Shown here in pieces: positions 329-13,822 of a stretch of DNA of 64,000 nucleotides. The DNA is taken from positions 1,178,001-1,242,000 of the forward strand of contig NZ_CP074149.1 in NCBI RefSeq assembly GCF_019968765.1. Direction: 5' to 3'. Under the pieces are notes generated by a model. That model saw only the letters and a list, made by a program, of their open reading frames with translations. It was not told where the DNA came from and searched no databases. The first letter of the stretch is position 1, and every line of letters begins with the position of its first letter. Both the position numbers and the translations under genes were made by a program. Source of the DNA: Enterobacter sp. JBIWA008 (GTDB taxonomy: Bacteria; Pseudomonadota; Gammaproteobacteria; Enterobacterales; Enterobacteriaceae).

Positions 329-2059
329 ATGATACAGGACGCTTTTGTACGTCAGAGGGCAAAACAACTTTACTGGCAGGGCTACCCGCCAGCGGAGATC
401 GCGCGCCTGATGGGGATTAATCAGAACACAATTTACGCCTGGAAGAAACGCGATGAATGGGATGAAACGCCGCCCGTCCAGCGCGTCAGCCAGTCTATGG
501 ATGCCCGCCTCATCCAGCTTACGGACAAGAAAGACAAGACCGGGGGAGACTTCAAGGAGATTGATCTGCTGACCCGGCAACTGAAAAAGCTGTCTGACGG
601 ACAACCGGCAGGGGCTGGCGCGGGCAAAAAGCCGCGCAAGCGCAAGCTGAAAAACCACTTCACCGAAGAACAGATCGTCGCGCTGCGGGAGAAAATACTT
701 GATTCCCTTTCGTGGCATCAACGCGGCTGGTACGAGCAACGCCACCACCGAAACCGCATGATACTGAAGTCCCGCCAGATTGGCGCAACCTGGTACTTTG
801 CACGCGAGGCGTTGCTTGATGCGCTGAGAGATGATGTGAAATACCCGTACCAGCGCAACCAGATATTTCTGTCTGCATCCCGCCGTCAGGCTCACCAGTT
901 CAGGGGATTCATTCAGAAAATGGCTGAAGAGGTGGACGTTGAGCTTAAGGGCGGTGACAAAATCGTACTGAGTAACGGCGCAGAGCTGCATTTCCTCGGC
1001 ACGTCCGCTGCAACGGCGCAGTCATATACGGGCAACCTGAAGTTTGACGAATTCTTCTGGGTCAGCAACTTCACCAACCTGCGAAAGGTTGCGGGGGCGA
1101 TGGCTACGCTGAAGGGGCTGACGCGTACCTACTTTTCAACGCCGTCAGGTGAGACCCATGAGGCTTATCCGTTCTGGACGGGCGATCGCTGGAATGAGAA
1201 ACGCCCGAAGGCACAGCGCAAAGCGTTTGATGTGGGCTGGAAAACGCTGAACAGTGGGCTGTTATGCCCGGATAAAACCTGGCGTCAGATTGTCACCCTG
1301 AAGGATGTGATAGACCACGGCTGGGAGTATACCGATCTTGAAGAAATTCAGGATGAAAACAGCGAGGATGAATTCCGCAACCTGTACATGTGCGAGTTCG
1401 TTCGCGATGGCGAGTCCGCCTTCAACCTTAACGCCCTGATTGGGTGCGGGGCAGATGGTTATGACGAATGGCCGGACTGGAAGCCTTTTGCGTCCAGGCC
1501 GATGGGTAATCGTCCGGTCTGGATAGGTTATGACGCCAACGGCAGCAGCGGAAACGGTGACAGCGGCGCGATTTGCGTTGTGGTTCCACCACTTGTGCCG
1601 GGAGGTAAATTCCGCACGGTAGAAACGGAACAGGTGCGTGGCCTTGAGTTTGAAGAGCAGGCGAAAGTTATCGAAAATTTCACCTTCAAATACAACGTCC
1701 AGCATGTCGGTATAGACGTAACGGGCGGTAACGGTGAGGCCGTTTACCAGATAGTGAAGAAGTTTTTCCCGATGGCAATGCCCTACACCATGTCAATGAC
1801 GTCAAAGCGCGCCCTGGTGCTGAAAATGCTACAGCTGATCCGCGCCGGGCGATGGGAATATGACCGCAGTGAGCGCGCCCTGATCAACGCCTTTAACTCT
1901 GTTCGCAAGGTAAAGACGCCTGGCGGATTCATCACCTATGACACTGACCGCTCGCGCGGCGTCAGCCACGGTGATTTAGCTTGGGCGAATATGCTCGCCA
2001 TTATTAACGAACCGCTGGGCCAGGAGAGTGGCAGCGGCGGGTTTGCTATGGAGTTCTGA
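329..2059 (+). CDS. P: Terminase large subunit gpP (ATPase/nuclease)
   Basis: 576-residue protein of the P2 gpP family, which translocates and cuts phage DNA during packaging. Residues 13-45 form a helix-turn-helix (PPAEIARLMGINQNTIYAW). The ATPase region carries a Walker-A-like KSRQIGATW at 147-155 and a Walker-B-like LKFDEFFW at about 237-244. The C-terminal half holds the acidic nuclease core, IGYDANGSSGNGDSG followed by VGIDVTGGNG. The length is typical for the family. The start has a GGAGGG site close upstream, and the stop overlaps the start of Q (TGATG), indicating translational coupling. Confidence 0.95.
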   Translation: MIQDAFVRQRAKQLYWQGYPPAEIARLMGINQNTIYAWKKRDEWDETPPVQRVSQSMDARLIQLTDKKDKTGGDFKEIDLLTRQLKKLSDGQPAGAGAGKKPRKRKLKNHFTEEQIVALREKILDSLSWHQRGWYEQRHHRNRMILKSRQIGATWYFAREALLDALRDDVKYPYQRNQIFLSASRRQAHQFRGFIQKMAEEVDVELKGGDKIVLSNGAELHFLGTSAATAQSYTGNLKFDEFFWVSNFTNLRKVAGAMATLKGLTRTYFSTPSGETHEAYPFWTGDRWNEKRPKAQRKAFDVGWKTLNSGLLCPDKTWRQIVTLKDVIDHGWEYTDLEEIQDENSEDEFRNLYMCEFVRDGESAFNLNALIGCGADGYDEWPDWKPFASRPMGNRPVWIGYDANGSSGNGDSGAICVVVPPLVPGGKFRTVETEQVRGLEFEEQAKVIENFTFKYNVQHVGIDVTGGNGEAVYQIVKKFFPMAMPYTMSMTSKRALVLKMLQLIRAGRWEYDRSERALINAFNSVRKVKTPGGFITYDTDRSRGVSHGDLAWANMLAIINEPLGQESGSGGFAMEF

Positions 2060-3117
2060 TGAAGAAGTGCACCTACAAAAATAAACACACTGCCAACAGT
2101 GGCAGTGCCGGACAGCCTGATATCTCTGACGCGCTCAGAAGCGATCCGGCGCTTAGCGCCTTCACGTTTGACGGGCCATATTCAGTAACAGACGGCTATG
2201 ATCTGCTGGACAGCATGTGTTGCGTCGATAATGGCCGGTACTATGAAACGCCAATTGACTGGAAAGGGCTGACCCGTGCATTCGCACAATCCCCGCTGCA
2301 TCAGTCGGCGCTTTACTTCAAGCGTAATGTGCTGACCGGGTGCTTTATCCCTCACCCCTTGCTGTCACGTCAGGCCTTCTCTGCGTTTGCACTGGACTGG
2401 TTTGTCTTTGGTAATGCCTATCTTGAACGTCGCTCTAACCTCCTTGGCGCTCCGCTCAAACTCCAGCATGTTCCGGCACTGAACACGCGACGCGGGAGCG
2501 ACCTTAATACCTACTGGTTTATCCGACAGTGGAAAGATGAATATGAGTTCAAAGCGGGCGAGGTCTGCCACATCATGAACCCGGACATTCATCAGGAAAT
2601 CTACGGTATGCCGGAATACATGGGGGCGCTTCTTTCCGCCAGCCTGTCACATTCCGCCGATAAATTCCGCAAACTCTATTACGACAACGGCTCCCATGCC
2701 GGATGTATTCTGTATGTCGGTTCGGAGAAGGTGGATCAGGAAAGCATAAAGGTGGTTCAAAAAACGCTGTCACAGGCCAGAGGGAAAGGCTCCTTCAAAA
2801 ACGTGCTGATCCACGCGCCGGGTGGCGGCAAAGACGGTGTGCAACTGTTGCCGTTCAGCCAGATATCGGCAAAGGATGAGTTTCTTAACATCAAATCAGC
2901 AACGCGCAACGATTTACGCGACGCTCACCGCATCCCGCCGCAACTGATGGGCGCAATGCCGGAAGGCAACGGCTCGCTCGGTGATGTTGAGAAGGCCGCG
3001 CGCGTCTTCGCCATCAACGAAATGTTGCCCGTGATGGAAGCCATGAAGGGCGTCAATGACTGGCTCGGTCAGGAAGTGATCCGCTTTAATCCCTACGCTC
3101 TGCTCAAAGACGAGTGA
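2059..3117 (+). CDS. Q: Portal protein gpQ
   Basis: 352 residues, PBSX/P2-type portal (about 344 residues in P2), forming the dodecameric vertex through which DNA enters the head. Recognisable segments are the N-terminal FTFDGPYSV, YYETPIDWKGL, the central LDWFVFGNAYLE, MPEYMGALLSASLSHSA, and the C-terminal RIPPQLMGAMPEGNGSLGDVEKA. It starts inside the P stop codon. Being the last gene of the PQ unit, its 3' end faces the region where P2 carries cos. Confidence 0.95.
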   Translation: MKKCTYKNKHTANSGSAGQPDISDALRSDPALSAFTFDGPYSVTDGYDLLDSMCCVDNGRYYETPIDWKGLTRAFAQSPLHQSALYFKRNVLTGCFIPHPLLSRQAFSAFALDWFVFGNAYLERRSNLLGAPLKLQHVPALNTRRGSDLNTYWFIRQWKDEYEFKAGEVCHIMNPDIHQEIYGMPEYMGALLSASLSHSADKFRKLYYDNGSHAGCILYVGSEKVDQESIKVVQKTLSQARGKGSFKNVLIHAPGGGKDGVQLLPFSQISAKDEFLNIKSATRNDLRDAHRIPPQLMGAMPEGNGSLGDVEKAARVFAINEMLPVMEAMKGVNDWLGQEVIRFNPYALLKDE

Positions 3118-3127
3118 TCCGCACCAC

Positions 3128-3148
3128 CCGCCGCACATCCTGCGGCGG
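3128..3148 (+). terminator. Hairpin after Q
   Basis: CCGCCGCA, a 5-base loop (CATCC) and TGCGGCGG make a perfect 8-bp GC-rich stem 10 bases after the Q stop. There is no long T tract (TTGTCCTTC follows), so it is a possible weak terminator or 3'-end-stabilising hairpin. Confidence 0.55.
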
Positions 3149-3531
3149 TTGTCCTTCAGTAATTTTCAATCTTCGCATGACCGGCCAGCACCCGATTACC
3201 ACCCGGTACGACCTTTAACGCCCCTCACTCAGAGCGCATGAGCGCCATTCTGGCAGGCGCAAACTGCAATCGACTCCGCACACACCCGGAAGCGAGAAAA
3301 CGCGCTAAGAAGGCGGAAATGGCCGAAGAATGGCATTTAATGGCACCCCCTCCCTGACCCCTGTCGCGTGGGCTGTTCCCCCGTCACCTGCGCGCGACAT
3401 TTGCTTCGTTTTTTGTGCACTTCCCGATCCTGAGCCAGACCGCGCCGCCACAGGGCGGAAAGGGCATAAACAGCATCAAAAAAATTGTGCAAATTTGTGC
3501 GCTATTGTGCAGCTCTAAAAGGCCCATCCAT
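3149..3531. other. Non-coding stretch between Q and the cargo promoter (expected cos side)
   Basis: No convincing gene is present; the one 62-codon ORF here has no ribosome-binding site or family resemblance. In P2 the cohesive end lies a few hundred bases beyond the Q stop, so cos is expected in or just after this stretch, but no good copy of the P2/186 cos sequence was found. The right end contains the TTGTGC repeats listed separately. Confidence 0.4.
3485..3510 (+). repeat. Three TTGTGC hexamers at exact 10-bp spacing
   Basis: TTGTGC occurs at 3485-3490, 3495-3500 and 3505-3510, so the copies lie on the same DNA face one helical turn apart. They end about 20 bases before the -35 box of the cargo promoter. 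A fourth copy lies upstream near 3414. The arrangement suggests cooperative binding of an activator or repressor, but no protein can be named. Confidence 0.5.
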
Positions 3532-3560
3532 TTGACTACCGATTACCTTTAGGGTAATTT
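3532..3560 (+). promoter_or_regulatory. Predicted sigma-70 promoter of the cargo leader
   Basis: TTGACT (3532-3537), a 17-bp spacer and TAATTT (3555-3560). A small inverted repeat, ATTACC/GGTAAT, sits within the spacer and -10 region. The promoter points at the leader ORF and DUF4760-like gene. Confidence 0.55.
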
Positions 3561-3571
3561 TGTCGTATTAC

Positions 3572-3605
3572 TTCACTAATAAGTGAATCTTCACCAATAA
3601 GTGAA
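3572..3605. promoter_or_regulatory. Two tandem near-identical palindromes (candidate operators)
   Basis: TTCACTAATAAGTGAA (3572-3587, perfect 6-bp arms) and TTCACCAATAAGTGAA (3590-3605, one mismatch) are repeated 18 bp apart. They start about 12 bp after the predicted -10 box, so they cover the start of transcription or the first transcribed bases. The layout fits dimeric-repressor operators; alternatively they fold as two small RNA hairpins. Confidence 0.6.
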
Positions 3606-3633
3606 CTACGAAATGCTTTCAAAGGGGGTTATT

Positions 3634-3669
3634 ATGAGAAAATTGTTTGATGAGTTCGACGGCTTCTAA
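3634..3669 (+). CDS. 11-codon leader ORF upstream of an intrinsic terminator
   Basis: ATG with AAAGGGGG about 8 bases upstream, encoding MRKLFDEFDGF and ending in TAA. It lies downstream of a predicted promoter and 20 bases before a strong hairpin terminator that precedes the DUF4760-like gene. The layout recalls an attenuation leader or a small RNA carrying a micro-ORF. I do not recognise the peptide; the good ribosome-binding site is the only evidence of translation. Confidence 0.4.
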   Translation: MRKLFDEFDGF

Positions 3670-3688
3670 GCTGAATCTAACCTCTACG

Positions 3689-3715
3689 AGGCGGGGAACT
3701 TACCCCGCCTTTTTT
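3689..3715 (+). terminator. Intrinsic terminator between leader ORF and DUF4760-like gene
   Basis: AGGCGGGG, a 6-base loop and CCCCGCCT form a perfect 8-bp stem followed by a run of T (3710-3715). It lies 14 bases before the start of the DUF4760-like gene, so transcripts from the 3532 promoter must read through it to reach that gene. A smaller CCTC/GAGG hairpin (3681-3691) overlaps its left arm. Confidence 0.8.
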
Positions 3716-3728
3716 ATGGATAAAAAAC

Positions 3729-4232
3729 ATGACATTAGACGCCAATACCCTGCAAATTATCAGTAACGCCCTTGTGCTGCTCGGCGTTGTCGTTGCCATC
3801 TGGACAATCGTCTATAACGTCCGCACCGCAAAGAAAACGCAAACGGCGAACTTTCTGTTCGAAAGTCGCCAGGATACGCAGTACATAGAATCGCTGCATG
3901 TCCTCAAGCAAGTGCATCGTTCAGGAAAATCGTTCCGTGCTTACGTCTTTCCATGCGAAGGCAAAGCGATCACCGAAGAAGAAATGACTGAGCGTCGCAA
4001 ATTTCAGTACATCCTGAACTTTTACGAAAGGGTTGCCGTGAGCATCCGCGAGGGGATTTATAACGAGCAGATGATCAAACGAACATCGTATACCACCGTG
4101 ATAGAGACCTACGATATTGCCGAACCACTGATCAAAGCCATCAGGGAGCACATCAAGTCAGAAACTACCTATCAAGAATTTGAATGGCTGGTTAAGCGAT
4201 GGAAAGCCAAACCGCTTAAGAAGAATAAATAA
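3729..4232 (+). CDS. DUF4760-like membrane-anchored cargo protein
   Basis: 167 residues. Residues about 9-30 form one hydrophobic segment (ISNALVLLGVVVAIWTIVYNV), followed by a basic stretch and a helical cytoplasmic domain (ILNFYERVAVSIREGIYNEQMI) that recalls DUF4760 proteins of phages and bacteria; their function is not established. It sits between Q and A, the P2 position of tin/old. A modest GGA lies 10 bases before the ATG. An attenuator-like leader precedes it and a long perfect hairpin follows it. The location suggests a lysogenic-conversion or anti-phage gene, but that is inference from position only. Confidence 0.75.
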   Translation: MTLDANTLQIISNALVLLGVVVAIWTIVYNVRTAKKTQTANFLFESRQDTQYIESLHVLKQVHRSGKSFRAYVFPCEGKAITEEEMTERRKFQYILNFYERVAVSIREGIYNEQMIKRTSYTTVIETYDIAEPLIKAIREHIKSETTYQEFEWLVKRWKAKPLKKNK

Positions 4233-4241
4233 CTATCGGCG

Positions 4242-4274
4242 TTGAGGAAGCCGCCAGCTAGGCGGCTTCCTCAA
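4242..4274. terminator. Perfect 14-bp inverted repeat between convergent cargo genes
   Basis: TTGAGGAAGCCGCC, a 5-base loop (AGCTA) and its exact complement GGCGGCTTCCTCAA, starting 10 bases after the DUF4760-like gene. Neither side has a T tract. It can act as a bidirectional barrier between convergent transcripts or as an mRNA 3' stabiliser. The remaining 210 bases up to 4485 hold only a weak ACACAAA/TTTTTGT dyad near 4446-4466, beyond the end of the leftward gene. Confidence 0.6.
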
Positions 4275-4484
4275 ACTACCGCGATGAACCGGAAACGATT
4301 TAGTTACGAGATGCAGGGGACTAAAACCTGTTTTGATAATATCAATCCTATCTCAGGTCTCAGCGCGTGCCTAAATCGTACTCAGTTATCCCGCTTTTTG
4401 CGCAAACCTGCAGCAGGCCCATTCCAATATGGTTAGCTCGAAAACATACAAAAATAGTTTGTGTATTTATAGGAAATTTGCGCA

Positions 4485-5975
4485 TCATTTTTCTTCACCT
4501 TTTACTTCCACTGTTTTTTCTTTATCTTGCCCGCGAGATTTGAGGGTTTCCATAACCTCTTTAAATAGCTCAGACTGAATACCTCTCAGCATCTTAGACT
4601 CTTCTTTGAACTGATTCTTTTCCAGAGAATCAAGAGGTGGTTGGTGTAATTGTTCCAAAACTGACTTTATATACTCAGTAACACTGTCAGGAGAACTATC
4701 CGTCAACTCATTACGGAAACTTACCATTGATAAGGCAAGAACTTTTTTATATGCATAATCTTCAATTATATGTTTTTGCTTAATATACTGGCTTGAGCAA
4801 AACCATAGTCCCGCAAGAATTAGCGGAACGATACTTAACCTTGAGAATAGATAGGGTATTTCGCTCGCTGCATCAAAACTCCATAAGGCCCATACGCAAA
4901 CCCCTACAGCACACGCTAATAGCACACCGCTTGCAATTAACCATTTGCCAACATTTTCTTTTGCTTCTGTGTGCTGCTCTTTAAAAAACTGGCCTAAACT
5001 AACAGTCCCGGTTATGTTTAGAATGGAAATCGCTTTTTCTTTTATCTTCTCAAGTTCATTGGCTTTTGCATCAAAATACTCGACTATATTTGATGCACTT
5101 CGGTTATTATCCTCTGCGATTTCGACCAGTGCCTTTAACTGCCTTCTAATATCTCCAGATGATTTGTAAAGCTCATCAATTCTTGAATGTACATCTTCAA
5201 CTTCATCCTTGACTCTATCCATTTCAACAACTTTTTGATCCCAATCGTTTTTAGAGGTGGCTATAGACTCTATTTTCTTATTAACTTTATCAAGTTCAAT
5301 TTCAAGCTCGCTGAATTTTTCTTCGGCTTGACCATGAATAGCCTCAACCTTATCATAATATTCTTCTATGGATGTCAGGCATTCGTTAGCTTCTTTTTTA
5401 TACCTCTGAGCATAGTCTAAATTATTAACAAAATCTCCCTTTAAATTTTCTAATGCAACTTGATCTTCCAATAATCGTCTATAGCTATCCCCTCTAGTTT
5501 CTGCCCCTTTGAAAGCAAAAACGCGGAGATATGGCTTCAAAACATCCAATTCGTTTGGAATGAGATTGAGTGAAAGTGGAGACCGTGGCCTAAGACGCTT
5601 TTCATGCTGAGTTGCAGAAATGTTAGGCATATCGAATATATCATTATTTAGCTGCACATCATCTTTTGTAAGAGTTTTATCACCATTTTCATCTCGTAAT
5701 TGCCTTTCGCAAGCATCTAAAGCGGAATCAATTCTATGCAAACTATCTTCAATAATTTGAATTTCACTTGCACTATAAAACACAGATAGAGTAAAGCTTT
5801 TCTTATTGAAATACTGAATACTCGATTTTAGTAGTGTACTTAAGTCATTCAAAATACCTTTAATGGATTTTCCTTCGTAATTACTAGTCGAATAATCCAA
5901 ATCAAACCCAGAGGCAATCAGTTCAGTTTGGAGGTTATCTTTTTTTGCTATTATGTTTTTAACTAAAGATTCCAT
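4485..5975 (-). CDS. Coiled-coil two-TM membrane protein of unknown function (hotspot cargo)
   Basis: 496 residues, not recognised. Residues 1-160 are mixed; about 165-320 are charged, heptad-rich and predicted coiled coil. Two transmembrane segments follow at about 345-367 and 376-397 with a short linker, then a charged helical tail of about 100 residues with a Lys/Glu-rich end. No enzymatic motif (Walker, HNH, protease, TIR) is visible. The gene is markedly more AT-rich than its phage neighbours, has its own promoter, an AGGAA ribosome-binding site, and lies in the Q-A hotspot where P2 carries tin/old. A membrane-anchored sensor or effector of phage defence is plausible by location and architecture, but unproven. 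Confidence 0.85.
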   Translation of the reverse strand: MESLVKNIIAKKDNLQTELIASGFDLDYSTSNYEGKSIKGILNDLSTLLKSSIQYFNKKSFTLSVFYSASEIQIIEDSLHRIDSALDACERQLRDENGDKTLTKDDVQLNNDIFDMPNISATQHEKRLRPRSPLSLNLIPNELDVLKPYLRVFAFKGAETRGDSYRRLLEDQVALENLKGDFVNNLDYAQRYKKEANECLTSIEEYYDKVEAIHGQAEEKFSELEIELDKVNKKIESIATSKNDWDQKVVEMDRVKDEVEDVHSRIDELYKSSGDIRRQLKALVEIAEDNNRSASNIVEYFDAKANELEKIKEKAISILNITGTVSLGQFFKEQHTEAKENVGKWLIASGVLLACAVGVCVWALWSFDAASEIPYLFSRLSIVPLILAGLWFCSSQYIKQKHIIEDYAYKKVLALSMVSFRNELTDSSPDSVTEYIKSVLEQLHQPPLDSLEKNQFKEESKMLRGIQSELFKEVMETLKSRGQDKEKTVEVKGEEK

Positions 5976-6013
5976 TTATGTTCCTAGCTAATGTAAGTGC
6001 ATAGTCCTCATCA

Positions 6014-6041
6014 ATCATATGACAACTCACTGAGTAATCAA
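6014..6041 (-). promoter_or_regulatory. Predicted promoter of the coiled-coil cargo gene
   Basis: On the minus strand, TTGATT, a 16-bp spacer and TATGAT lie in the 74-bp gap between the A stop and the cargo start, leaving a leader of roughly 35 bases. This indicates transcription independent of the early phage operon, as expected for a gene expressed from the prophage. Confidence 0.55.
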
Positions 6042-6049
6042 ATACTTTG

Positions 6050-8449
6050 CTATTCCTCCCGCTTACTCTTATCACATGCTATTTTCCATCTTTGCAAAAG
6101 TTTTTGTGTCTGTTTAGATGCCAATAGTCTTTGCAATGGCTGTTTATCTATCCCGGACTCGGCGCGGTTGCGCAATACCAGCCGCCCGTCATGCACAGTG
6201 ATAATGAGATCGCCGCACGCCACTGACGCACCGTCCATAATCGATCTGACCATTCCGGCGCTAGCATCAACCCCACGCAGCGCCAGCAATTCACTGATCT
6301 GCTGTTCTTTCACGGATAGCCGTCCCCGCTCTTCCCGTTCCGGTGGCCGCTTTTTACGCTTACTTCTCACATCGTCACTAAGTCTCTGTGCCAGTTCTCT
6401 CTTTTCCTGCCGTGAAAGCCCGTCAAAATTCACCGTCACGCCCTCAGCTGGAACAGTCATTTCCGACTGCCCTGCAGATTCGCTGGCGGCATGTTCAACA
6501 CCGTCAGCACCTGCCGCAGGATCCCGCGTACAGTTATTGACAGAACTCCGAGGGGCGGCGATGCCGCCTGAAAAACCAACGTCAACGGCCACACCGTCAG
6601 CGTTCTGGCGCTTCGGCACGATTTTGTATTGAGTGGTGCGGGTGAAGATCAAAGAGTCATTGCCCGTTATCGGGCAGTAAATACCGGTGATGCGCTGGAC
6701 GTCATCGCCGTAGGCGTTGCCGTTTTCGGTGGTTTCATAGTTCAGACGAATGCGCAGCTTATCGCGCTCAACCAACGGGCCACCCTGGGCTAATACGTAG
6801 TTATCCCACTCGCCAGCATCAGCGGCCTGTCGTGCGGTTTCCAGTTCAGGGTGTAACACCAGTTCGCGATTACCCAGGCGGCGAAGTTCACGATATACCG
6901 TGACCGGCGCACCGCCGATCTGCTGAAACTGGCGAATAGACCAGCGCGACGCCCACGCGCTAACGCGGAGTGACATTTCTTTCAGGTCTTCCCCGGTTTC
7001 GTCGTCTTTTTCGCCATCCAGCGCGAAGCCGTCGATATTCTTCGAAATGTATTTCGCTATGTAGCCGGTTGCGCTGCCTAAAGCGTCCTCAATCGGCTTA
7101 AATTCAAGGCGGTGCTCCCATGCTCCTGGCTCGTTGCCGTCTTCTCTAAGGGCATATTTACGGAAGATATCGCGCGCCTGTTCGACCTTTTCCGGGCGCA
7201 TGAAAAGAAGTAAGTGCCAGTGCGGCGTTGCATCGTGGTGCGGTTCAACCACGCGGAAGCCAAAAACACGGATCCCTTTTCTCTTCCACGCGGCGCGGGT
7301 TCTCGCCCAGACCTTGCAAAGGTATTGCTGCGTCTCGCGAGGTGACGCGCCACAGTATTTATTATTACGACGCCCGTTATGCTGCATAGCGTGATAGCGG
7401 GAAGGTGCAGTCAGCGTGTAGAAGTCACCGGCCAGCCCTTCCAGCTTTGCCAGTTCTTCAAATCCGCGCATTCTCGTCATGAGTTCGCGGCGACGGTTGG
7501 CTGGATTGGCAACACTGCCGGCGACTTTATCGATCAAAGAAATGCGCTCGCCCGTGTCCTGGTCTTCCAGTTCCATAGCCTTAAGGTATTCACGGTTAGC
7601 CTTTTTCTGGGCCAGCCATTCCGTAAGGCACGGGGCGCTGCTATATGGAGAGGATTTTTTCTGGACATATCCCGCTGCGATCATCAAATGCTCACGCCAA
7701 CGGGCATGGATACGGCGCAGGCGGTTTAACCACCACTGCGGTGACTCAAGACGGAGAACCGCGCGTAACGCGTCCTCCGCTTCAAGTTCTTCATTGCAAT
7801 ATGCTGTCCAACCGGGGATCGGCGTTTTCAAATGCACCGCCAGCGACGCAATACGGCCATAGCCAGAAAGCGCCGCGAACTCAGGATCGCCGGTGCGCGC
7901 CAACTGGTGATCGGACTCGCGTATAAACTCGCTCGTAAAGATATCGGCAAGCGTATAAGCCAGTCTTTTTAACTCTTTTTTCCCTGCCCAGAGCATACGG
8001 AAAAGCTGATCGCGGATTGGCAGCAGAATGCCGGGCATCACAGTGTCAGGCTGGTAAACACTGTTCACGCCATCAATACGCGTTAATACGTGGCGCTCAA
8101 AGGTGTTAAGCAGCCAGTGGTCTGCCGCTTTGCGGTCTTTCGCGTCCAGCGCATCCAGCTTCGCGGCAAAGTGACGGCGGACATACTGCGGAAGAGAAGC
8201 CAGACGGCGGCGCAGCAGCTTGCTGCGTTCCGGCTTTTCGTCCTCCGCTACCAGTTCACTGAACGCAATATGCTTGCGGGTGCCGTCCGGCGTGAGATAG
8301 TCGAAACCATCCAGCCCCGGCGCTACATCAACGCCAATCGGCTGGTATGGTTTGTTCCCGCCATAAGCGTAAGGGGTAGCATTATCAGTGCTACCCGGAT
8401 ACGGTGGAGGTGGAGAAGGGGCGCGACGGCCACGGGTTGCCGTGGTCAT
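6050..8449 (-). CDS. A: Replication initiation endonuclease gpA (HUH family)
   Basis: 799 residues, close to P2 gpA (about 760). It nicks the origin and stays joined to the 5' end to drive rolling-circle replication. After a proline-rich start, residues 340-355 carry FYTLTAPSRYHA, the HUH metal motif is PHWHLLLF (His410, His412), and the two catalytic tyrosines lie in ATGYIAKYISKN (Tyr463, Tyr467). In P2 the origin lies within A itself. The start overlaps the stop of the cytosine methyltransferase by four bases (ATGA), implying coupling at the end of the early operon. Confidence 0.96.
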   Translation of the reverse strand: MTTATRGRRAPSPPPPYPGSTDNATPYAYGGNKPYQPIGVDVAPGLDGFDYLTPDGTRKHIAFSELVAEDEKPERSKLLRRRLASLPQYVRRHFAAKLDALDAKDRKAADHWLLNTFERHVLTRIDGVNSVYQPDTVMPGILLPIRDQLFRMLWAGKKELKRLAYTLADIFTSEFIRESDHQLARTGDPEFAALSGYGRIASLAVHLKTPIPGWTAYCNEELEAEDALRAVLRLESPQWWLNRLRRIHARWREHLMIAAGYVQKKSSPYSSAPCLTEWLAQKKANREYLKAMELEDQDTGERISLIDKVAGSVANPANRRRELMTRMRGFEELAKLEGLAGDFYTLTAPSRYHAMQHNGRRNNKYCGASPRETQQYLCKVWARTRAAWKRKGIRVFGFRVVEPHHDATPHWHLLLFMRPEKVEQARDIFRKYALREDGNEPGAWEHRLEFKPIEDALGSATGYIAKYISKNIDGFALDGEKDDETGEDLKEMSLRVSAWASRWSIRQFQQIGGAPVTVYRELRRLGNRELVLHPELETARQAADAGEWDNYVLAQGGPLVERDKLRIRLNYETTENGNAYGDDVQRITGIYCPITGNDSLIFTRTTQYKIVPKRQNADGVAVDVGFSGGIAAPRSSVNNCTRDPAAGADGVEHAASESAGQSEMTVPAEGVTVNFDGLSRQEKRELAQRLSDDVRSKRKKRPPEREERGRLSVKEQQISELLALRGVDASAGMVRSIMDGASVACGDLIITVHDGRLVLRNRAESGIDKQPLQRLLASKQTQKLLQRWKIACDKSKREE

Positions 8450-9360
8450 TGCGCGATCTCCATGTAGGCTTTTAAGAAAGTAGCGGCTGCATAGATATTT
8501 ACGGCGTTTCCGCTGGCGCGTAGTTTTCCCACTCTGGAGGGAACCCCATCAACCAGAGGCTTAAGGCCGGGTTTAACTGGCCTCCACTTTCCATCTCTGC
8601 AAAAGAGCCAGTCAGCAGATCCCCAGAATCCGTTAACCGGGCCGGGCCTGCTATCTGCGCTGTCACATCCAGCGTATCCGTTGACAGCTTCCCGTGCCGC
8701 ATCCTTCCTCCCTGATACCCGCCCTTTCCATCCCTCGCCGCAGGGGTGGGCCAGCCCGCAAGACAAGCAAAGTCCTGTAAGTTCGACTGCCGACCAGCCA
8801 GCTTCCTGGCGATCACCTTCTCGGCATCCTGATAAGCGTTCTTCGTATTGCTCGCGGTTGGAGTCGGCCAGCCAGTAAGTACGCTCCCGGATGTGCGGCG
8901 CACCGACGCCCGCAGACGGAAACGCCGACGCCCCGAAGGCATAGCCCAAACTTTCCATGTCAGTTTGTACAAGGTCGATCCAGACTTCTGCATCTTTGCT
9001 TGAAGACTGTTCGCCAAATATAACGACAGGGCGTTGCTGGCCTGCAAGCCAATGAACGGCGGGCCATAGGTGCCGCTCATCATCAAATTGTTTTCCTTCG
9101 CCTGCCTGGCTGAAAGGTTGGCATGGGCAACTTGCTGTCCATATTGGGCGGTCGTCCGGCCATCCTGCAACGCGCAAAGCACGGGGCCAGCCTCCAAAAC
9201 CTGCAAACAGGTGGACTTGAGAGAATCCTTTAATGTCATTTGGGGTTACATCCTCAACGGAACGAGTATCAACAACGCCGGAAGCGATAAGCCCAGCATC
9301 AATGAGGTTGCGCAGGTATTGCGCGGCGAAGGGGTCGATTTCGTTGTAGTAGGCAGTCAT
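8446..9360 (-). CDS. DNA (cytosine-5) methyltransferase
   Basis: 304 residues from the ATG complementary to 9358-9360, 10 bases after the upstream dam stop; a longer frame exists but would run back over dam. Motif I is LFAGFGGW (51-58), the catalytic loop is SCPCQPFSQAG (Cys80), motif VI is shortened to GEQ, motif VIII is RERTYWLA, and the final motif is ASGNAVN. The target-recognition region is short, typical of phage enzymes. With no restriction partner visible, it probably protects phage DNA from host restriction. The start has no strong ribosome-binding site, so coupling to dam is likely. Confidence 0.9.
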   Translation of the reverse strand: MTAYYNEIDPFAAQYLRNLIDAGLIASGVVDTRSVEDVTPNDIKGFSQVHLFAGFGGWPRALRVAGWPDDRPIWTASCPCQPFSQAGEGKQFDDERHLWPAVHWLAGQQRPVVIFGEQSSSKDAEVWIDLVQTDMESLGYAFGASAFPSAGVGAPHIRERTYWLADSNREQYEERLSGCREGDRQEAGWSAVELTGLCLSCGLAHPCGEGWKGRVSGRKDAAREAVNGYAGCDSADSRPGPVNGFWGSADWLFCRDGKWRPVKPGLKPLVDGVPSRVGKLRASGNAVNIYAAATFLKAYMEIAQ

Positions 9361-9370
9361 AGAGGGCGTC

Positions 9371-10369
9371 TCACAGTGGAATCGGGTTTTCTTCTGATTC
9401 CCAATAGCCGGGGAGCACATCGCTATCGGATTCATCTCCACATCCGGCTGAATACCCAGCGCATGGCCCGCAGTCCGGGCAATGACCACCACCATAACGC
9501 CCGCAGCAGTCGCAGACAGGCAGCACGCCGATCACTTCTTTGGCCTTCTGGCGGTTGTCCTTGTCAGTGCTGACGGAACGTTGCACGCTGATTTCGTGCA
9601 TCTTGAATGGCTGATAAATCGCGCGGGTGGCTTCGGTGTCGCTGTTGGAAATGACGACCTTCACGCCATGCTTACGGTTAACTTCCAGCAGTGCCTTGAC
9701 TAACTGGCGGTGGTTGTCTTCCTTGAATGGTTCGGTGTGGTACTGGGTGAAATCCGCTGTTTTGCTCTCAGGCAGGTAAGGCGGATCGCAGTACACGAGA
9801 ACATCGCCACTCGTGACGACTTGTAGAGAACGCTGGAACGGCGCGCAAAGAAATATTGCCTTTGTATCGTTGGCCTTTTCGGCAAACAGGCGGATTTCAT
9901 TTTCAGGAAAGTAGACGCTCTTATACTTGCCAAACGGCACGTTAAAGCCGGTCTTCCGGCTGTATCGACATAAGCCGTTATAACCGTGGCGATTCAAATA
10001 CAGGAATTGAGCAGCGCGCATAATGCACGCCATTTCAGCGCCATAACGCAACCCACCGCTTTTTACCATACCCACCTGCTTATTGAACGCGGCGCGGACT
10101 TCGTTGTATCCCTGCGGGCTGTTCTTACTGTTGAACAGTTCGCGGGCCGCATCGATCACTAAGTCCGGGTAACGGGTGACTTCCCGATACAGGTTAATAA
10201 GATCCGGGTTGATATCAGCCAGCACATATCGGCGGTATTCAGTCGCCAGAAATACCGATGCGCCGCCTACGAACGGTTCGATCAGGCAGTCGGCTTTAGG
10301 AAGATGCGGCAGCAGGTCAGGGAGGACACGGGTTTTACCCCCTGCCCATTTGATGAACGGGCGGATCAT
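9371..10369 (-). CDS. dam: Dam-type adenine methyltransferase with C-terminal cysteine cluster
   Basis: 332 residues from the ATG at 10369, preceded by GGAG at good distance; an upstream in-frame ATG would overlap the neighbouring ORF. Motifs are FIKWAGGK (5-12), EPFVGGASVF, ADINPDLINLY and the catalytic DPPY (195-198), as in Dam/T4Dam enzymes that methylate N6 of adenine, usually in GATC. Unlike the cellular enzyme (278 residues), it has an extension after about residue 284 with seven cysteines between 286 and 310 (CDCC...C..C..C......C) and an acidic end, probably zinc-binding. The stop lies 10 bases before the cytosine methyltransferase start. Confidence 0.9.
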   Translation of the reverse strand: MIRPFIKWAGGKTRVLPDLLPHLPKADCLIEPFVGGASVFLATEYRRYVLADINPDLINLYREVTRYPDLVIDAARELFNSKNSPQGYNEVRAAFNKQVGMVKSGGLRYGAEMACIMRAAQFLYLNRHGYNGLCRYSRKTGFNVPFGKYKSVYFPENEIRLFAEKANDTKAIFLCAPFQRSLQVVTSGDVLVYCDPPYLPESKTADFTQYHTEPFKEDNHRQLVKALLEVNRKHGVKVVISNSDTEATRAIYQPFKMHEISVQRSVSTDKDNRQKAKEVIGVLPVCDCCGRYGGGHCPDCGPCAGYSAGCGDESDSDVLPGYWESEENPIPL

Positions 10370-12233: not shown

Positions 12234-12302
12234 CTTTATATAAACATTACATTTTCACTATTTGTTACCAGGATAGTGAATTCACCATTGGAGGGCTTCA
12301 CT

Positions 12303-13325
12303 ATGTCAGTTAAGAAGCTCGAAGATGGACGCTACGAAGTTGATGTAAGGCCGCGCGGGCGCGATGGAAAACGCATTCGGCGGAAGTTTGATAGAAAGGC
12401 AGATGCCCACGCTTTTGAACGCAGTATCATTGCCAAATTTCAGAATCATGATTACCTGAACAAACCGGCAGATAAACGAAAACTAAGCGAGTTTATTGCG
12501 CTCTGGTGGCAGTTGATCGGACGAAACAAAAACTATGCAAATCGCAGATTGAGTGCGGTTAAATGTATTTGCCAAGATATGGGTGACCCTATGCTTTACC
12601 AGCTTGATGCACGATGCATTATTGATTACCGGGCATACCGGCTGGAGCAGGGGATCAAGGCTTCAACGATAAATCATGACCTTTTCGCCTTAAGTGGGAT
12701 TTTCAAGTCAATGGCGGAGATCGACGAGTTCCACGGAGAAAACCCCGTGACGTCTGTTGCCGCGTTGAAAGAACCCAAAACCGAAATGTCATATCTCACT
12801 CAGACCGAAGTTGATCGGCTTTTGTCGTTATGTACGGGTGATTACTACCGCATAGCAATTTTGCTGTTGGCTACCGGTGCGAGGTGGGGGGAAGCATACA
12901 ATCTGAAAGCGGAAAACATTGTCGGTAACAGAGTCATGTTTACCCTGACAAAAAACGGCGAAAGGCGCGTTGTTCCGATATCGGATGATATCGCCAGGAT
13001 AATTAAACACAGGGAATCAGGGCGGCTTTTCCGAGTCAGTTACAAGACATTCCGTTTGAGGATGAAAGAAGCAAAACCCAACTTGCCAGATGGACAGGCG
13101 GCCCACGCTTTGCGGCATACGTTCGCAACGCACTTCATGATGAAGGGGGGCAACATCATTGCCTTACAGCGAATTTTGGGTCATGCGGATATTTCGCAAA
13201 CGATGGTTTACGCACACTTTGCACCAGACTATTTACTGGACGCTGTGAGCTATAATCCTCTCAGTGGAATGTCCACATTGTGTCCACACTCTGGAGGCAA
13301 AGCGGGGGATTTGCGGGTTAGTTAA
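12303..13325 (+). CDS. int: Site-specific integrase (P2-type tyrosine recombinase)
   Basis: 340 residues from the ATG at 12303, preceded by GGAGGG; an in-frame ATG 27 bases upstream lacks a site. The N-terminal arm-binding segment is KKLEDGRYEVDVRPRGRDGKR. Catalytic residues are Arg194 (TGARWGEA), His268/Arg271 (HALRHTFA), His294 (LGH) and Tyr303 (TMVYAHFAP). It catalyses integration at attB, and excision together with Cox. It is the last phage gene before cueR. Confidence 0.96.
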   Translation: MSVKKLEDGRYEVDVRPRGRDGKRIRRKFDRKADAHAFERSIIAKFQNHDYLNKPADKRKLSEFIALWWQLIGRNKNYANRRLSAVKCICQDMGDPMLYQLDARCIIDYRAYRLEQGIKASTINHDLFALSGIFKSMAEIDEFHGENPVTSVAALKEPKTEMSYLTQTEVDRLLSLCTGDYYRIAILLLATGARWGEAYNLKAENIVGNRVMFTLTKNGERRVVPISDDIARIIKHRESGRLFRVSYKTFRLRMKEAKPNLPDGQAAHALRHTFATHFMMKGGNIIALQRILGHADISQTMVYAHFAPDYLLDAVSYNPLSGMSTLCPHSGGKAGDLRVS

Positions 13326-13344
13326 GTCTGTAAAATACTGATTC

Positions 13345-13370
13345 GGCGCAGTACCTTACGGGGCTGCGCC
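13345..13370 (+). terminator. Hairpin after int, next to the attachment junction
   Basis: GGCGCAG (13345-13351) and CTGCGCC (13364-13370) form a 7-bp stem with a smaller CC/GG pair inside, 20 bases after the int stop. No T tract follows. It may end int transcription before cueR. The phage-host junction must lie near or just after it. Confidence 0.5.
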
Positions 13371-13383
13371 TGTCAGAATCCCA

Positions 13384-13402
13384 CCATCAAGGGGAAGGTC
13401 AA
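13384..13402 (-). promoter_or_regulatory. Split CueR/copA promoter (half-site only)
   Basis: Read on the minus strand, TTGACC and the arm TTCCCC match the -35 box and right arm of the E. coli copA promoter, whose CueR dyad lies just before cueR. The other arm, expected as GGAAGGT, reads TGGTGGGA here, and the expected -10 TAACCT is replaced by TCTGAC. Together with the integrase 60 bp away, this suggests the prophage was inserted in or beside the operator. Confidence 0.6.
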
Positions 13403-13411
13403 GGGGGAAAT

Positions 13412-13822
13412 GTGAATATCAGTGACGTGGCAAAAAAAACCGGCTTAACCAGCAAGGCAATCCGCTTTTATGAAGAGAAGGGGCTAGTAACGCCACCGCT
13501 GCGCAGTGAAAACGGCTATCGCAGCTACACGCAGCTGCATCTGGATGAACTGACGCTGCTGCGCCAGGCAAGACAGGTGGGGTTTAATCTGGAAGAGTGC
13601 GGCGAGCTGGTTAACCTGTTTAACGATCCGAAGCGTCACAGCGCCGACGTGAAAAAACGCACGCTGGAAAAAGTAGCCGAGATTGAACGCCACATCATCG
13701 AGCTGCAGTCGATGCGCGAACAGCTGCTACAGCTCGCGGAAACCTGTCCGGGGGATGACAGCGCCGACTGCCCGATTATCGATAACCTTGCCGGCTGCTG
13801 TCATCGTAAGGCCTCTGCTTAG
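13412..13822 (+). CDS. cueR: Cu(I)-responsive MerR-family regulator CueR
   Basis: 136 residues. The N-terminal winged helix-turn-helix ([23 protein letters not shown]) is followed by a dimerisation helix and the Cu(I)-binding loop with Cys112 and Cys120 (CPGDDSADC), then the CC near the end. It senses cytoplasmic Cu+ and activates copA and cueO by DNA distortion. The start is a GTG with GGGGGA upstream. In E. coli copA is divergent immediately upstream; here prophage sequence intervenes. The 3' end overlaps ybbJ by four bases, convergent. Confidence 0.97.

Follow-up and report, generated by a model that had tools for sequence, protein, structure and literature searches.

Two candidate cargo modules between the portal and replication genes of a P2-like prophage in Enterobacter sp. 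JBIWA008

A variable slot between genes Q and A

The interval 3118–6049 of a 64,000-nucleotide stretch of the Enterobacter sp. JBIWA008 genome (contig NZ_CP074149.1, positions 1,178,001 to 1,242,000; hereafter the window) is bounded by a P2-like portal gene Q (2059–3117) and a replication gene A (6050–8449). It holds two convergent genes, one on the forward strand for a DUF4760 membrane protein of 167 residues (3729–4232) and one on the reverse strand for a coiled-coil protein of 496 residues, hereafter CC (4485–5975). An earlier note on this DNA, made from its letters alone, had taken the convergent pair for a prophage-encoded exclusion or abortive-infection system. This arrangement raises two questions. 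What kind of place do the two genes occupy, and do they form one system or two? We propose, with moderate confidence, that the slot carries two independently acquired modules, in which CC is a predicted membrane-anchored abortive-infection or exclusion effector and the DUF4760 protein would serve the same broad purpose.

The accessible part of Rousset et al. (PMC9122126) reports that in E. coli the cos-proximal region flanked by gpA and gpQ is an anti-phage hotspot, with 18,150 occurrences in 1,650 arrangements, old and tin among them. The interval in the window is a cargo slot of this P2-like kind, the location of the hotspot itself being already published. Its content differs among close relatives, defence systems included. 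Locus L062, in which P, Q and the DUF4760 protein are 99.7%, 97.4% and 95.8% identical to those of the window and A only 34%, carries Gabija in the slot (GajA, expectation value E = 6.9e-228; GajB, E = 1.7e-146), and Enterobacter phage phiT5282H (L004; P 99.3% and Q 97.7% identical) carries IetA/IetS (1.9e-88 and 1.9e-41). In L007 (P 58%, Q 53% and A 87% identical) the slot is occupied by a CC gene (83% identical) together with a KAP NTPase that matches PDC-S20 of PADLOC (5.7e-72) and PifA. A methyltransferase-like gene is seen in the slot of L061 and, by eye, a ParA-like gene in that of L074, and the slot open reading frames (ORFs) of L068 and L005 are without a strong PADLOC match. This survey of Q–A intervals, which the earlier note had called for, bears out its statement that varied anti-phage genes lie at this place.

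The second question is answered by the company that each gene keeps. None of 27 viral stretches (6.1–12.5 kb each) encoding a relative of the DUF4760 protein encodes CC, and the CC-carrying loci L007 and L008 gave no DUF4760 match. The two genes occur apart and are therefore separate modules. A single two-gene exclusion system, which their adjoining position in the window might suggest, is very improbable: besides their separate occurrence the genes are convergent and differ in composition, CC having a GC fraction of 0.359 and a third-position fraction (GC3) of 0.29 against 0.54–0.56 and 0.59–0.66 in P, Q and A, a departure that had been noticed before. The earlier reading thus falls as a claim about one system. 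For CC it gains support from relatives that lie in defence loci, and for the DUF4760 protein only the location speaks for it.

The coiled-coil protein and its relatives in defence loci

The ORF, the alignments and a predicted model indicate that CC consists of an N-terminal helical domain, a long coil, two transmembrane (TM)-like segments (342–370 and 375–394) and a conserved QYIKQ/EDYAYK block, in agreement with the AT-rich coiled-coil protein with two TM helices described earlier. The long helix of the model spans residues 158–315 (~150 residues; predicted local distance difference test score, pLDDT, 74; predicted template-modelling score, pTM, 0.38). A protein search returned 22 relatives. 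In alignment A2 of CC relatives, invariant residues other than Met1 are confined to 345–447, and residues 321–424 are 35–52% identical to the relatives P0013–P0022, compared with 11–21% for the coil and 11–24% for the N-terminal domain. Judged by these alignments, the predicted TM and juxtamembrane block is the conserved part of CC.

CC is rare. At E<=1e-3 it is matched in 8 of 295 Enterobacteriaceae genomes, four of them convincing (the window's own included) and four matching in the coil only; at E<=1e-10 one genome among 321 of the class and one among 349 of the family of G295 had a match, each time only the own or the centre genome.

The neighbours of its relatives are telling. Two plasmids, one from A. 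pittii and one from A. haemolyticus, carry a CC relative between pglX and pglZ of a bacteriophage exclusion (BREX) locus, where it overlaps each by 4 nucleotides (nt); this context was read in these two of the 27 plasmid records (24 from Acinetobacter and three from Vibrio) that a tblastn search with CC returned. One phage record, Microcystis phage Mwe-JY31, was also matched. The genome collection gave 35 CC loci, of which 34 were placed, L050 having no whole CC ORF. In six of the 34 (L020, L025, L026, L028, L029 and L030) the gene directly preceding CC is hsdS, 12–20 nt away, and in four of these six a type I R gene follows further on; two ORFs make up the split CC gene of L025. The hsdM/hsdR genes lie within 7 kb of CC in L046, ZorA/ZorB lie 1–2 kb from it in L021, and L027 has a C5 methyltransferase and MzaB after it. 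A search with eight marker proteins, taken from L021, L027 and L030 themselves once PADLOC had named them, backs nine of the 34 loci.

Pfam was applied to nine further neighbour proteins. It recognized a YhcG nuclease and an N6/N4 methyltransferase beside CC in L031, an Eco57I-type enzyme near CC in L045, a type I R-like protein in L050 and a helicase in L044; no Pfam match was obtained for the neighbour in L039. An AAA_16 ATPase (L018), a RelA/SpoT-domain protein (L019) and a DUF4062 protein (L032), also found by Pfam beside CC, are possible further partners.

Other copies sit in prophages, where positions were read by eye. CC lies in the Q–A slot, after gpA and on the same strand, in L007 and L008, and after a repressor-like gene in five loci (L010, L011, L012, L014 and L017), the last three of which also have a downstream integrase; the match figures of L013 equal those of L012. 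It lies between portal and terminase in L015 and beside early genes in L009. With its occurrence in BREX and type I restriction-modification (R-M) operons, on the strand of the operon genes, near Zorya genes and at prophage cargo sites, CC is distributed as a defence cargo gene would be, and probably is one. Since those relatives lie inside such operons and near Zorya genes, CC gains support independent of the slot. The literature on accessory genes of BREX and hsd loci, in the parts accessible, offered no lead on CC. The exclusion genes of Pseudomonas phage Fc02, considered as a parallel, are a different case as far as the accessible text of PMC9936078 goes.

The earlier note had also assigned each gene its own promoter, which the consensus scan does not sustain: six promoter-like sites were found in the interval against 6.3 ± 2.3 in shuffled sequences, and no site above threshold lies ahead of the DUF4760 gene. 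For CC the scan picked out TTGATT-16-TATGAT (6014–6041, reverse strand, 9/12), in the 74-nt gap between A and CC, among sites that do not exceed the shuffles. CC could be co-transcribed with gpA.

The DUF4760 gene and its leader

The family assignment of the DUF4760 protein is firm (PF15956, E = 2.3e-35, 122.3 bits against a gathering cut-off of 25; phrog_2284, 1.3e-68). Its model has a pLDDT of 92.8, and its single hydrophobic segment (5–34) agrees with the one-pass membrane protein of the earlier note. That note had also asked for structure prediction, which named no function for CC and, for the DUF4760 protein, gave a weak resemblance to the EP domain of the plant immune receptors EDS1/PAD4/SAG101. 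P2-like P, Q and/or A genes accompany the DUF4760 relative in 16 of the 27 viral stretches, and 11 are without them.

The least expected part of the locus, missed earlier and new here, is the leader ahead of this gene. An 11-codon mini-ORF, MRKLFDEFDGF-stop (3634–3669, forward strand), preceded by a Shine-Dalgarno-like GGGGG, ends 59 nt before the DUF4760 start, and between the two lies a terminator-like hairpin of 9 bp with a T tail (3688–3711, forward strand). Our literature search found no paper on such a mini-ORF and hairpin ahead of DUF4760.

Mini-ORFs ahead of DUF4760 genes have 9–21 codons and mostly end in DEFDGF-stop. Among the 27 viral loci, which were found through the DUF4760 protein, three lack upstream DNA; the mini-ORF is in place in 23 of the 24 others, and in the 24th (L070) it lies ~1.4 kb upstream, separated from the DUF4760 gene by an insertion within the hairpin. 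Phages Shae_phiSM and 569R5 (L003, L005) have the mini-ORF too. In Pseudomonas phage D14E, where the DUF4760 gene follows the repressor, MAIKREPLLVAVVVREEYEGI-stop and a hairpin (by eye) stand between cI and DUF4760. In Acinetobacter phage A3926.3 no mini-ORF or hairpin was seen, and in Alteromonas phage P24 none was clear. Thirteen whole-genome loci, the window included, show the exact motif in six, one of them before a truncated DUF4760 gene, and variants in four (DEYEGF-stop, DEYEGL-stop, DEFDGF with TGA, and DEFDGFYIMK-stop); L214 and L221 were unresolved by the script, and in L219, which is cut short, none was seen.

A hairpin with a T tail follows the mini-ORF in 19 of 22 distinct leaders, compared with 88 of 4400 mononucleotide shuffles, while the stems vary in sequence. 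The test covered 26 leaders, L098, L139, L142 and L160 having been found by motif (L160 is the Pfam-found L211); those without a T-tail hairpin are L207, L212 and L217. Only some of the leaders show, on inspection by eye, a CCTC..GAGG pairing, a candidate for a competing antiterminator. The codon-position test used 17 mini-ORFs found by protein, Pfam or DNA similarity, with repeats merged and L218 and L220 left out. Fourteen of the 17 encode DEFDGF, and their variable columns fall by codon position as 0/6, 0/6 and 6/6. Because only third positions vary in these 14, the mini-ORF is under selection at the peptide level. Its role could be that of an attenuator, or it could act as a functional micropeptide.

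The motif is also found away from this locus. A codon scan of viral contigs for DEFDGF-stop gave 118 stretches, many of them from related phages, compared with five when the first two codons were swapped. By a residue-pattern rule 28 of the 118 precede a DUF4760-type gene, and all five motif-found candidates submitted to Pfam were DUF4760. A T run within 80 nt follows all 28 of these, compared with 12 of the other 90, which still contain a few interrupted or cut DUF4760 leaders. DEYEGF-stop occurred in one stretch and DEFEGF-stop in 16, and DUF4760 follows the former and two of the latter (E 1.9e-33 to 3.4e-35); the two DEFEGF-stop leaders, L231 and L234, fail the five-T rule because, despite a GC-rich hairpin, they have no more than four T. 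Contexts away from DUF4760 (among L086–L201 and L226–L241) include MYDEFDGF-stop, MKDEFDGF-stop coupled by ATGA to the upstream gene, and doubled forms. By eye, DEFDGF-stop and DEFEGF-stop mini-ORFs also stand before gp61-like and gp47-like genes in T4-like phages. A group reading YFLNDEFDGF may represent other-frame readings of a gene start. The DEFDGF-type C-terminus may resemble the tail of single-stranded DNA-binding protein.

Further upstream, a weak promoter-like TTGACT-17-TAATTT (3532–3560, forward strand) was read by eye below the scan threshold; L064, L003 and L005 retain the TTGAC. Two tandem 16-bp dyads TTCAC-N6-GTGAA (3572–3605), each matched on both strands, follow it. Shuffles gave a mean of 0.23 matches and at least four in 0/100, with a pattern that was written after the sites had been seen. 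Since other dyads are seen by eye at about the same place in several relatives, these may be operators for varying regulators.

Proposed roles, rival explanations and remaining features

How might the two modules work? In the explanation that we favour, module 1 would consist of the mini-ORF, the hairpin and DUF4760, and module 2 of CC alone. CC would be a single-gene effector whose variable, putatively cytoplasmic N-terminal domain and coil sense an infection cue, whereupon the conserved two-TM and juxtamembrane block would perturb the inner membrane or bring the cell to arrest; architecture and conservation suggest this split between a coil that senses and a block that acts on the membrane. 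CC would be akin to genes embedded in BREX and R-M operons that step in once the main system has been met or blocked. The DUF4760 protein, plausibly defence cargo as well, would be a putative lysogen-expressed membrane protein whose output is limited by the terminator behind a translated mini-ORF.

Several findings weigh against this explanation. PADLOC gave no family for the DUF4760 protein at E<=1, and for CC eight weak matches at that level, all within residues 170–337 and none specific outside the coil, so that, as stated earlier, neither protein matches a named defence family. Naming CC from weak matches was given up, as those of PADLOC and NCBIfam (DruC, JetC, SMC and others) fall in the coil, and fold searches returned helical arrangements only, with no function named. 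The BREX-locus relative is distant (tblastn E 1e-5 to 3e-4, 22% identity at 1e-5); profile comparison with the first such relative gave a probability of 97.6% (E = 4.8e-12) and reached through the EDYAYK block, with the coil contributing to the score. The marker search left 25 of the 34 CC loci without a called defence neighbour, some of which have R-M-like genes by Pfam. At E<=1e-15, 118 near neighbours of CC (within two genes) match 288 PADLOC models, compared with 32 models for 98 far genes in these loci, a contrast that tallies redundant models rather than genes in sets of unequal size; six near-neighbour proteins match type I S models, and no S model is among the 25 far-gene models shown. 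The other naming attempts were unproductive: Pfam and PHROG matches of CC are mostly in the coil, those elsewhere having E >0.03, under any cut-off; DUF4131 across the TM region reached 0.022 in 6/25 members, under its cut-off; and sequence searches of solved structures gave no lead.

The close embedding of CC relatives, overlapping both BREX neighbours or following hsdS at short distance, is what one expects of a component, and CC might, rather than being an effector, assist R-M or BREX complexes as a scaffold, regulator or membrane tether and, in a prophage, help or block host systems. We consider this unlikely, since orphan copies occur in prophages with no R-M or BREX genes seen beside them by eye, and the systems with which CC is found (type I R-M, BREX, Zorya and a C5 methyltransferase locus) are unrelated. 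For module 1, there is a serious though not leading possibility that the mini-ORF peptide is the working product, the hairpin ending its transcript and DUF4760 being a low-level read-through partner. The many phages with such mini-ORFs but no DUF4760, some coupled or doubled, and the restriction of variation to third codon positions agree with it; the T-tailed hairpin, kept in most DUF4760 leaders despite differing stems, and the three variant-motif matches that traced back to DUF4760 genes do not. Slightly less probable to us is that DUF4760 acts in lysogenic conversion or phage housekeeping, as a membrane protein with no role against other phages. Its lack of a PADLOC match, its occurrence outside the P2-like slot in 11 of the 27 viral stretches and its place after the D14E repressor fit such a role, and yet it sits in a slot for exclusion genes and is missing from the phage relatives L004, L007 and L008. 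A bolder and rather doubtful extension would make DUF4760 a bacterial or phage membrane receptor with an EP-like fold, dosed by a new mini-ORF class that reads the translation state in the course of infection and releases the terminator, CC a stand-alone form of a last-resort membrane guard of BREX and type I R-M that is also kept near Zorya, and the wider DEFDGF family of unrelated phages a new class of phage micropeptide.

The two-module explanation can be set beside known systems. The slot resembles that of old and tin in P2 in its place between gpQ and gpA, probably beside cos, its variable cargo and the known defence systems in relatives, as far as described in the accessible part of PMC9122126. 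CC and the DUF4760 protein differ from Old and Tin, by description rather than by sequence, in that neither protein matches a named family and CC, unlike the OLD-type ATPase Old, has no ATPase recognized by Pfam. For CC, Pfam listed 15 families at E<=1, none of them an ATPase such as the PrrC/RloC-type ATPase nucleases would have, and found no nuclease domain. By description, CC is also like BxaP, which the accessible text of PMC10799925 presents as a rare single gene of BREX loci, type I R-M loci and phages that acts alone, probably by abortive infection; there BxaP is discussed with HEPN toxins and is not described as membrane-bound, unlike the coil-bearing CC with its two TM-like segments. 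For PrrC, the sources as far as accessible describe linkage to a type I R-M locus and activation through an anti-restriction factor of a phage, which might serve as a model for a guard next to hsdS; it is an ABC-type anticodon nuclease, unlike CC. The leader has the order of leader-peptide attenuators, a short ORF with a ribosome-site-like sequence, a T-tail hairpin and then the gene, but it has no run of control codons and does have a conserved acidic-aromatic C-terminus, and an antiterminator would be hypothetical.

The hotspot is known, and the two cargo families were previously without a lead. CC ties prophage cargo to an unnamed gene of BREX and type I R-M operons, also found near Zorya, so that a specific test of guard effectors becomes possible. 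The mini-ORF suggests either that module 1 makes a further conserved product or that it has a switch built in, and leaderless clones could therefore give false negatives in screens; ORFs of ~8–21 codons are easily overlooked by annotation.

The flanking genes are clear. Gene P for the large terminase (329–2059, forward strand) matches Terminase_6N (3.7e-54) and Terminase_5 (2.8e-27), Q (forward strand) matches PF04860 (3.5e-15), and A (reverse strand) matches PF05840 (3.6e-105) and phrog_91 (3.2e-261). A non-coding block at 3358–3511, not assigned to a strand and kept in P88-like phages by blastn pieces against phage records (query 241–394), is the probable cos region; it lies near the record end in two phages (500465-2 and P884B11). 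An RNA family search of the interval gave one match (E 0.91), under its cut-off, and hence no named RNA family. Between the convergent genes, a 14-bp inverted repeat without a T run (4242–4274, by eye) is a possible two-way terminator. In the early region, two DNA methyltransferase genes on the reverse strand (8446–9495 and 9371–10369) lie immediately upstream of gpA, C5-type (PF00145) and D12-type (PF02086) by Pfam. At 12276–13822 an integrase gene is closely followed by a MerR-type regulator resembling cueR (both by eye), which together mark the probable end of the prophage.

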